From Sphaerobacter thermophilus DSM 20745 (GTDB lineage: Bacteria; Chloroflexota; Chloroflexia; Thermomicrobiales; Thermomicrobiaceae), in NCBI RefSeq assembly GCF_000024985.1, contig NC_013523.1, forward strand, positions 1,798,001-1,862,000: a stretch of 64,000 bases of DNA, given 5' to 3'. Both the position numbers and the translations under genes were made by a program. Of this stretch, positions 26,946 to 29,261 are shown one piece after another (the stretch's first letter is position 1; each line of letters begins with the position of its first letter). The notes under the pieces are model-generated. The model did no database searches. It was not told where the DNA came from and worked only from the letters and a program-made list of their open reading frames with translations.

Positions 26946-27812
26946 CTACTCCTCCGGACGCGGCGCGCCGACCAGGCTTCGCAGTCTCGCCAGGTTCTCC
27001 GCGTCCTCATGCAGATCGTCACTCTTGGGCGTTTCCAGCAGCCCCGGCAGGCCCTCCAGCCGCGGGTCGTTCACGACGTTGTGGAACCCCGCAAGCCCGA
27101 TCATCCCGGCCCCGATGTGGTCGTGGCGATCGACGCGTGAGCCGAGTTCGCGCTTGGAGTCGTTCAGGTGGAGCGCCCGCAGGTTCGCCAGCCCCAGGAT
27201 GCGATCGAACGCGTCCATCGTCTCGGCGTACCCCTCAGGCGTGCGCAGCTCGTAGCCCGCGGCGAAGGCATGGCAGGTGTCAAAGCAGTAGCCGACACGC
27301 TCCGGCTCTGCCACGCGATCGACGATGGCCCGGAGCTGCTCGAAGCGGTAGCCGAGCGCGGATCCCTGCCCCGCCGTGATCTCCAGCAGCGTCATCACCC
27401 GGTAGCCCGGCAAGTCGATATGGATCCGATTGAGCGCATCGGCCACGCGCTGGATGCCGAAATCCTCGCCCGCGCCGGTGTGCGACCCGGGGTGCGTCAC
27501 AAGATAGGGCACACCCAGCAGTTCACAGCGCTCCAACTCGACCCGGAAGGCGTCGATCGACTTTTCCCACAGCGCATCGTCGGGCGAGGCGAGGTTGATC
27601 AGATACGAGTCGTGCGCCACCACCGCGCGGATGCCCGCTTCCTCCTGCCGCTGCTGGAACCGCTCCACCTGCTCCGGGGGGATCGGCTTGGCGTTCCACT
27701 GGTTGTTGTTCTTGGTGAAGATCTGCACGGCGTCGCAGTCGACCTTCTCGGCACGGTCGATCGCCTTGTCGACTCCACCCGCGATCGACATATGCGCCCC
27801 GAAGAGCAGCAT
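26946..27812 (-). CDS. nfo: Endonuclease IV (AP endonuclease)
   Basis: About 288 aa, a TIM-barrel zinc enzyme. It starts LLFGAHMSIAGGVDKAI, and zinc-ligand motifs are visible: HPGSHTGAGE, LLEITAGQG, CFDTCHAFAAGYE, LHLNDSK, RHDHIGAGMIG and LLETPKSD. It cuts the backbone 5' to abasic sites during base excision repair. The start is taken at ATG 27812 with GGAG 6 nt upstream; earlier in-frame ATGs (27824, 27839) are possible. It is the middle gene of a minus-strand set with the ArsC/Spx-like selenoprotein gene upstream and the broken methyltransferase downstream. Confidence 0.94.
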   Translation of the reverse strand: MLLFGAHMSIAGGVDKAIDRAEKVDCDAVQIFTKNNNQWNAKPIPPEQVERFQQRQEEAGIRAVVAHDSYLINLASPDDALWEKSIDAFRVELERCELLGVPYLVTHPGSHTGAGEDFGIQRVADALNRIHIDLPGYRVMTLLEITAGQGSALGYRFEQLRAIVDRVAEPERVGYCFDTCHAFAAGYELRTPEGYAETMDAFDRILGLANLRALHLNDSKRELGSRVDRHDHIGAGMIGLAGFHNVVNDPRLEGLPGLLETPKSDDLHEDAENLARLRSLVGAPRPEE

Positions 27813-27861
27813 GCTCCGCTCCATCTCTCCGCTACACATGCGCCGTCATCGATCCGCGGCG

Positions 27862-28233
27862 CTATCCCGTCTCTCCAGTTCCGAACAGCGCGTCCATCCG
27901 CTTCCGGTCGAACCCGAGGGCGCTCCCCTCGGGCGTCAGCAGCAGCGGGCGCCGCAACAGCGTCGGCTCTGCGACCATCAGGTCCAACAGCTCGTCGTCC
28001 GACACCTCGCGCTCGGCGAGTCCCAGTTCCCGGTAGGCTCGGCTGCGCTTCGACAGCGCCTCGCGGGGCGTCAAACCCGCTCGCCGCAGTACGTCGGCCA
28101 ACTCCTCGCGCGTGAAGCGCTCCTTGAAGTAGTCGCGCCGCACGTACTCGACCCCTCGCTGCTCAAGATACTCCTGAGCCTTGCGACAGCTCGTTCACGT
28201 CGGATGGACGTAGATCTCGACGTCGTTCGCCAC
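27862..28233 (-). CDS. ArsC/Spx-like thioredoxin-fold protein, predicted selenoprotein (UGA at residue 13)
   Basis: Reading TGA at 28195-28197 as selenocysteine gives a 123-aa protein that is collinear with the whole ArsC/Spx/YffB family. It has EIYVHPT-U-TSCRKAQEYLEQ (U13xxC16 in place of CxxC), then SKRSRAYRELGL and the conserved EPTLLRRPLLL. The GTG start at 28233 follows GGAAGGGGG at 8 nt. The first Cys of this motif is the redox-active residue in relatives, exactly where Sec is expected. A SECIS-like hairpin lies 15 nt downstream (28161-28179). Ignoring the recoding leaves only an N-terminally cut product from 28143. Function: thiol/selenol oxidoreductase, arsenate reductase or RNA-polymerase regulator. 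The alternative is a TGC/TGT-to-TGA nonsense mutation. Confidence 0.8.
28161..28179 (-). promoter_or_regulatory. Bacterial SECIS-like hairpin
   Basis: Within the coding sequence, on the minus strand, GCTCAGG pairs with TCTTGAGC-side bases to give 7 bp (one G-U) closing a loop AGTAT. The stem starts 15 nt and the loop 22 nt after the UGA, and a G is within the first two loop bases. These match the known spacing and loop rule for bacterial SECIS elements read by SelB. Confidence 0.6.
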
Positions 28234-28409
28234 CTGCCCGACCCCCTTCCGTCAGGTTCCATCCCATGCCCGACATGGTAACAGCCCAGCGCCGCCCGCG
28301 CCCGGCCCGTCAGCGCTGGCTCGGGCCACTCCGGCCGAGTCCAGCCACCACCACTACCTGATTTGCTGCCACCCGGTGTACACTCGGCGCCGAGGAGAGG
28401 AGGAGCGGC

Positions 28410-29261
28410 TTGCGAATCCTCGTGACCGGCGGAACGGGGCAGGTGGGACGCGCCCTGCAGCGGCTCGCACCTCCCGGGTACAGCATCGTCGCGCCCGGCT
28501 CCGACCGCTGCGACGTGACTGACTTCGATGCCTTCATCCGCTTGGTAGCAGATGAGCAGCCCGACGTGATCGTGCATGCGGGCGCCATGACCGACGTGGA
28601 TGGCTGCGAGCGCGACCCGGAGCGCGCCTTCCGAATCAACGCCACCGGCACCCAGCACGTCGCCGCCGCTGCGCAGCAGTTCGGCGCAGCCCTTGTCTAC
28701 CTCTCAACCAACTACGTCTTCGACGGTGAGGCCGCCGAGCCCTACCACGAGTTCGCTGAGCGGCGGCCGATCAACGTCTACGGTCGCTCCAAGCTCGCGG
28801 GCGAGGAGGCCGTCCGGGCGATCGCCCCGCGCCACTATATCGTCCGCACGGCGATGGTCTACGACGAGACGGGCCGGAACTTCGTCAACACGATGTTGCG
28901 GGCCGCCGCCGAGCGCCCCTCGCTCACCGTCGTCGCCGACCAGCGGGGCAACCCGACGTACGCCGGCGACCTCGCCGCCGGGATCTACCGCCTGATCGAG
29001 CAGCCCGCCTACGGCACCTACCACCTCGTGAACGAGGGCAGCGCCTCCTGGTACGAGTGGGCGACCGAGATCTTCCGCCTCGCCGAGATCGAGACGCGGG
29101 TCGAGCCGATCCCAGCCGCGGAGTGGCACCGCGCGGCCCGTCCCCCCGCCAACGGCGTCCTCGCCAATACCGCCGCGGCGGCGCTCGGCATCACCCTTCC
29201 GCCGTGGCAGGACGCCCTCGCGCGCTGTCTCGCCCGGCGAGCGGCGCTCCAGCCGGCATGA
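28410..29261 (+). CDS. rfbD: dTDP-4-dehydrorhamnose reductase (RmlD/RfbD)
   Basis: A 283-aa short-chain-dehydrogenase-fold protein. N-terminal NAD(P) motif RILVTGGTGQVGRAL; family motif HAGAMTDVDGCERDPERAFRIN; catalytic YGRSKLAGE (Tyr-x3-Lys); STNYVFDG. It makes the last step of dTDP-L-rhamnose synthesis. The TTG start at 28410 is supported by GGAGAGGAGGAG just upstream. The stop overlaps the ATG of a family 2 glycosyltransferase (ATGA), so the pair probably makes and uses a surface sugar. rmlA, rmlB and rmlC are not adjacent. Confidence 0.9.
   Translation: MRILVTGGTGQVGRALQRLAPPGYSIVAPGSDRCDVTDFDAFIRLVADEQPDVIVHAGAMTDVDGCERDPERAFRINATGTQHVAAAAQQFGAALVYLSTNYVFDGEAAEPYHEFAERRPINVYGRSKLAGEEAVRAIAPRHYIVRTAMVYDETGRNFVNTMLRAAAERPSLTVVADQRGNPTYAGDLAAGIYRLIEQPAYGTYHLVNEGSASWYEWATEIFRLAEIETRVEPIPAAEWHRAARPPANGVLANTAAAALGITLPPWQDALARCLARRAALQPA

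Follow-up and report, generated by a model that had tools for sequence, protein, structure and literature searches.

The window that we analysed, a 64-kb stretch of the Sphaerobacter thermophilus DSM 20745 genome (64,000 nt, G000:C1:1798001-1862000), almost certainly carries a genuine selenoprotein gene at 27862..28233 on the minus strand, in which an in-frame UGA at codon 13 would be read as selenocysteine (Sec). The predicted product is an ArsC/Spx-like protein of 123 aa. We prefer this reading to a pseudogene or a sequencing error because the TGA recurs at the same codon in relatives, hairpins follow it family-wide, and Sec genes are present in every TGA-bearing genome. UGA 13 would be decoded by SelA, SelB, SelC and SelD, aided by a hairpin just downstream. 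The genome comprises 3,993,764 bp on two replicons (99.99% complete), and its nearest named relatives in a GTDB contig search are Sphaerobacter MAGs.

On translation, the frame runs for 123 codons from a GTG start at 28233 to a TAG stop at 27862, and its sole internal in-frame stop is the TGA at codon 13 (28195..28197, minus strand), just as a sequence-only reading of this DNA had described. The predicted N-terminus is VANDVEIYVHPT-U-TSCRKAQEYL..., and the residues flanking codon 13 are HPT-U-TSC-RKA. The TGA replaces the first active-site Cys, giving UxxC, within a complete ArsC/Spx domain (Pfam ArsC, residues 8-114); this is the catalytic Cys position, that of C10 in Spx and C12 in ArsC, and here too the earlier claim holds. 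A probable ribosome-binding site, GGAAGGGGG, picked out from the sequence alone, lies 8 nt before the GTG (28242..28250, minus strand).

GTG 28233 is the only ATG, GTG or TTG between the preceding in-frame stop and the TGA. When S. thermophilus was compared with five relatives, 14 to 20 of the 20 codons before this GTG differed non-synonymously, versus 2 to 5 of the 12 after it, and both these 12 codons and the 60 after the TGA showed protein-level conservation far above that of the upstream stretch. Since conservation drops just before the GTG and holds on both sides of the TGA, translation should begin at the GTG and read through the TGA. An ordinary ORF caller instead begins the gene at 28143, giving 93 aa with the active site lost, as the sequence-only reading had foreseen; that this shorter, Sec-less protein is the real product, with the upstream conservation arising from another cause, has next to no probability, because it would miss the first strand and both active-site residues while the codons from the GTG to the TGA are conserved as protein.

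We found homologues in 26 of 61 genomes of the same order and counted the 24 with a readable active site, setting aside an N-terminally incomplete copy (G027) and a broken one with a TAG (G052). At the codon equivalent to 13, 16 of these homologues have TGA and 8 have a Cys codon (6 TGC, 2 TGT), while none has TAA or TAG. The 16 TGA-bearing genomes span nine genera, and their copies are free of frameshifts, TAA and TAG. If the gene were a pseudogene or misread, the TGA would be a nonsense mutation or an erroneous Cys codon; TGC and TGT are each one substitution away from TGA, and eight homologues do have one or the other. However, the TGA stands at the same codon across nine genera, the protein is conserved on both sides of it, and Sec machinery co-occurs, all of which speaks against this rival. 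The same TGA in 15 other genomes excludes a private error at 28195-28197, and the unrelated stops in close relatives that would have spoken against the sequence-only reading are absent except from the fragmented G052 copy, whose genome lacks Sec genes over the cut-offs. On this comparison of homologues, a pseudogene or an error is already refuted, and we leave it only a vanishing probability.

The S. thermophilus genome has all four components for Sec insertion, whose absence would likewise have told against the earlier proposal. Its tRNA-Sec scores 74 bits and is called tRNA-SeC by ARAGORN, with anticodon TCA (UCA), and selB (358.7 bits), selA (527 bits) and selD (380 bits) are all above curated cut-offs. 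As an observation in its own right, selD (G000:C1:928852-929787, minus strand, outside the window) has one in-frame TGA. An in-frame TGA in selD is a known selenoprotein pattern, and this selD is probably a selenoprotein gene as well.

Across the order, at least one of selA, selB, selD and tRNA-Sec was found over its cut-off in 16 of 16 TGA-bearing genomes, versus no Sec gene over the cut-offs in 6 of 9 Cys-bearing genomes (G056, G049, G026, G034, G055 and G052, the last with the broken copy). This concordance gives a Fisher p of 5e-4, with the G052 fragment counted among the Cys forms and relatedness uncorrected. Among the TGA genomes, the strict threshold yielded no tRNA-Sec in G021, G028 or G042, all three of which have selA, and G006 showed no selA over its cut-off; gaps of this kind could be due to draft assemblies or to strict filtering. 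Three Sec-capable genomes (G031, G033 and G043) carry the Cys form, and thus Sec does not appear to be essential to the function.

Downstream of the TGA, the sequence-only reading had noted a hairpin with a 7-bp stem and a 5-nt loop with G at its second position, starting after 15 nt, and we recover exactly this structure at 28161..28179 on the minus strand. It begins at +16 after the TGA and consists of GCTCAGG (28179-28173), the loop AGTAT and CTTGAGC (28167-28161), to which RNAfold adds one A-U pair, making an 8-bp stem with the loop GTA. Taken alone, this hairpin is only suggestive and could still arise by chance: its folding energy does not stand out from that of synonymous shuffles of the S. 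thermophilus sequence (p 0.16), and about 5% of such shuffles pass a geometric test that requires 6 bp or more of stem, 3-7 nt of loop and a G among the first two loop bases. Because the folding energy of the single hairpin was not significant, we applied this geometric test to the whole family. It was passed by 14 of 16 TGA forms versus 3.5 expected from synonymous shuffles (tail 1.5e-10) and by none of the 8 Cys forms versus 1.3 expected; the shuffles used the codon usage of the window, which approximates that of the other genomes. When each genus was represented by a single genome, 8 of 9 TGA forms passed versus 2.0 expected (tail 7e-6). The two TGA forms that fail the simple test are those of G030 and G028. 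A single stem register for all groups was considered and dropped, as the pairing in Sphaerobacter and genus g4 is offset by one base from that in g2, g5, g7 and g17. This one-base shift between groups, made with different base pairs, indicates that the hairpin is kept while its sequence changes. Rfam and ARAGORN searches of the 64-kb window gave no match; the SECIS element differs from gene to gene, so that an Rfam match is not expected.

Comparison with family models and structures supports an ArsC/Spx thioredoxin-like fold for the predicted protein, with Sec13 and Cys16 as a UxxC redox pair. Pfam ArsC (PF03960) matches residues 8-114 with an E-value of 1.6e-19 and 70.4 bits, above the gathering cut-off of 24, and no other gene of this family is found in the S. 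thermophilus genome. The best NCBIfam model is TIGR01617 (Spx/MgsR), at 86.9 bits against a cut-off of 75.05, while the arsenate reductase model TIGR00014 stays below its cut-off (80.9 versus 106.05), as does NF041106, ArsC_rel_Se_1 (33 bits versus 85). An AlphaFold2 model built from the 24-row alignment has a pLDDT of 88.5, and its matches are near ties among Spx (1z3e; Z 16.9, rmsd 2.4, 118 residues aligned), a putative ArsC-family protein (3gkx; Z 16.7, rmsd 2.0, 117 aligned) and E. coli ArsC (Z about 15.5, rmsd 2.5, 119 aligned). Five residues never vary in the 24-homologue alignment (Cys16, Ser61, Arg63, Arg95 and Gly107), and only Sec or Cys occurs at residue 13.

A redox role, either as a reversible switch or as a reductase, is likely on the strength of this motif. 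Sec13 would be the reactive selenolate, becoming oxidised itself or attacking a disulfide or sulfenic acid of a substrate; Cys16 would resolve it as a selenenylsulfide, and a thioredoxin- or mycoredoxin-like protein would then reduce the pair. With attack by Sec13 and resolution by Cys16, we infer that the protein could work as a fast, reversible redox switch or reductase. The sequence-only reading had offered an oxidoreductase or a transcription-linked sensor. A selenol/thiol oxidoreductase or sensor does fit, but the RNA-polymerase contacts of Spx that a direct link to transcription would call for are not conserved.

A true regulator of the Spx/MgsR type would bind the C-terminal domain of the RNA polymerase alpha subunit and use Sec as its redox switch. 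The ranking of TIGR01617, the place of Spx structures at the top by profile and by fold, an invariant equivalent of Spx R60 and an equivalent of K62 that is mostly Arg or Lys all point towards such a regulator. However, Spx G52 is a contact residue for the alpha C-terminal domain (PMC2801614). Its equivalent here is T55, with Thr or Ser in 19 of 24 homologues and Gly in 0 of 24, and the C-terminal tail of Spx is absent. Moreover, in a gapless alignment the S. thermophilus RpoA has Leu opposite Tyr263 of B. subtilis RpoA. Since neither contact residue is kept, a direct Spx-like role in transcription is unlikely.

Less likely still is that the protein is a selenocysteine arsenate reductase, although it belongs to the ArsC family, is the only such protein encoded in the genome, and has a parallel in the UxxS ArsC selenoproteins that occur in marine data (PMC1088965). 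Its TIGR00014 score is too low, and the neighbouring gene is nfo rather than an ars gene. The three arsenate-binding arginines of plasmid R773 ArsC (R60, R94 and R107) are also largely gone: the equivalent of R60 is an invariant Ser, and the region of R107 has Phe or Asp. With only the R94 equivalent present, classical arsenate reduction is improbable. A classical arsenate reductase and an Spx regulator that binds RNA polymerase are both improbable identities for the selenoprotein, and a selenol-based redox protein of another kind remains our preferred reading.

The gene order around the predicted selenoprotein gene offers a lead to its function. By homology and by gene order in relatives, the next gene downstream is nfo, encoding the AP endonuclease endonuclease IV (26946..27839, minus strand), with a likely start at 27812, 49 nt past the selenoprotein stop and on the same strand. 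The divergent upstream neighbour, which we place outside the system, resembles rfbD (dTDP-4-dehydrorhamnose reductase by homology; 28410..29261, plus strand) and is conserved in families f1 and f2 only. Of the 24 homologues whose active site can be read, 22 have nfo as the very next gene in the same orientation, whether they are Sec or Cys forms; G031 and G023 are the exceptions, and G027 was left out of the scoring. The gap ranges from -4 to +329 nt, the largest being that of G002, and mostly does not exceed about 130 nt; in five loci (L012, L028, L029, L032 and L033) the projected nfo start overlaps the arsC end by 1 to 4 nt. The pair also stands in L018, L031 and others, and it spans three families (f1, f2 and f3), with proteins down to 40% identity to the query. 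Separately, at G052:C349 (L034/L035) the broken homologue, with its TAG and split frame, lies beside an intact nfo.

A pairing shared by Sec and Cys forms across three families and at low identity points to a conserved operon. It suggests that the protein may serve DNA repair as a redox partner or sensor. Because the two genes stand together, operon-like, across this order, an oxidative-damage response is the most plausible setting, and co-expression with nfo would bring the protein into use under oxidative DNA damage. There, the selenoprotein would reduce an oxidised partner or sense oxidants for the repair operon. We regard this link to DNA repair, which gene order suggests, as a tentative lead. 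It is possible, though we would not favour it, that endonuclease IV has in the Sec redox protein a partner of its own, produced together with it, by which the repair of oxidised DNA in Thermomicrobiota is protected, activated or regulated; Sec and Cys would have replaced each other several times in evolution. A literature search turned up no work that connects endonuclease IV or Thermomicrobiota with selenoproteins of the Spx or ArsC kind, and such a partnership, if true, would to our knowledge tie a bacterial selenoprotein to base-excision repair for the first time.

Beyond the order, a GTDB-wide contig search with the single protein reached no further than close relatives, apart from remote Cys proteins of the YffB/Spx type. 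Among 20 more distant Chloroflexota homologues, the majority carry a single TGA within the matched frame; 11 of them entered a tree, 10 as Sec forms and 1 as a Cys form, all at the same site. The nfo gene is found in 0 of these 20 loci within the fetched flanks. A tree of 35 rows requires about five switches between Sec and Cys, whichever direction they took. The same-site TGA in divergent ArsC/Spx-like proteins is seen at L072, L075, L076, L078, L081, L082, L084, L085, L088 and L089. None of the eight divergent Chloroflexota proteins that were scanned reaches the NF041106 cut-off, and thus this model misses them. As predicted from these sequences, the Chloroflexota hold several branches of UxxC ArsC/Spx selenoproteins.

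Standard annotation would probably render the gene wrongly and lose its active site, as the start lies ahead of a stop codon and the protein goes unrecognised by the existing ArsC selenoprotein model. A corrected annotation would give a cultured aerobic thermophile, along with many of its relatives, one more selenoprotein. Natural Sec and Cys versions of one gene pair within a single order should be useful for asking what selenium contributes. The part most worth following is the conserved pairing with endonuclease IV, which gives this uncharacterised family a testable idea, that of a selenol switch tied to the repair of oxidative DNA damage.

Selenoproteins related to this one are already known, a point that the sequence-only reading leaves out, as it does the pairing with nfo. 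ArsC selenoproteins with UxxS have been reported since 2005 (PMC1088965), and UxxC selenoproteins named 'arsenate reductase 2' and assigned to cd03032 were reported in 2008 from 42 Global Ocean Sampling sequences (PMC2398784). The latter resemble the S. thermophilus protein in being bacterial, in their ArsC/Spx-type domain, in having Sec first in UxxC and in having Cys homologues; they differ in coming from ocean reads, whereas the present branch belongs to Thermomicrobiota, thermophiles included, and is linked to nfo, a comparison made by motif and description only. The cd03032 group corresponds to the Spx subfamily. A UxxC arsenate reductase-like family, NF041106, is also listed (PMC13188914). 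It shares with our protein its relation to ArsC and a UxxC motif with Sec or Cys, but by its own model the S. thermophilus protein falls in another subfamily. R773 ArsC, a glutaredoxin-dependent arsenate reductase, has the same fold, the same position of the catalytic residue and the R94 equivalent; in contrast, the S. thermophilus protein lacks equivalents of R60 and R107, places its resolving Cys within UxxC and scores under the TIGR00014 cut-off. B. subtilis Spx (1z3e) shares the fold, the CxxC position and equivalents of Arg60 and Arg92, and the S. thermophilus protein exceeds the Spx/MgsR cut-off; here, however, Sec stands in place of Cys10, G52 and the C-terminal tail are missing, RpoA is without Tyr263, and the neighbour is nfo. 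The S. thermophilus protein is thus a further branch of the already known UxxC Spx/ArsC selenoproteins, one whose pairing with the gene for a DNA-repair enzyme appears to be previously undescribed.
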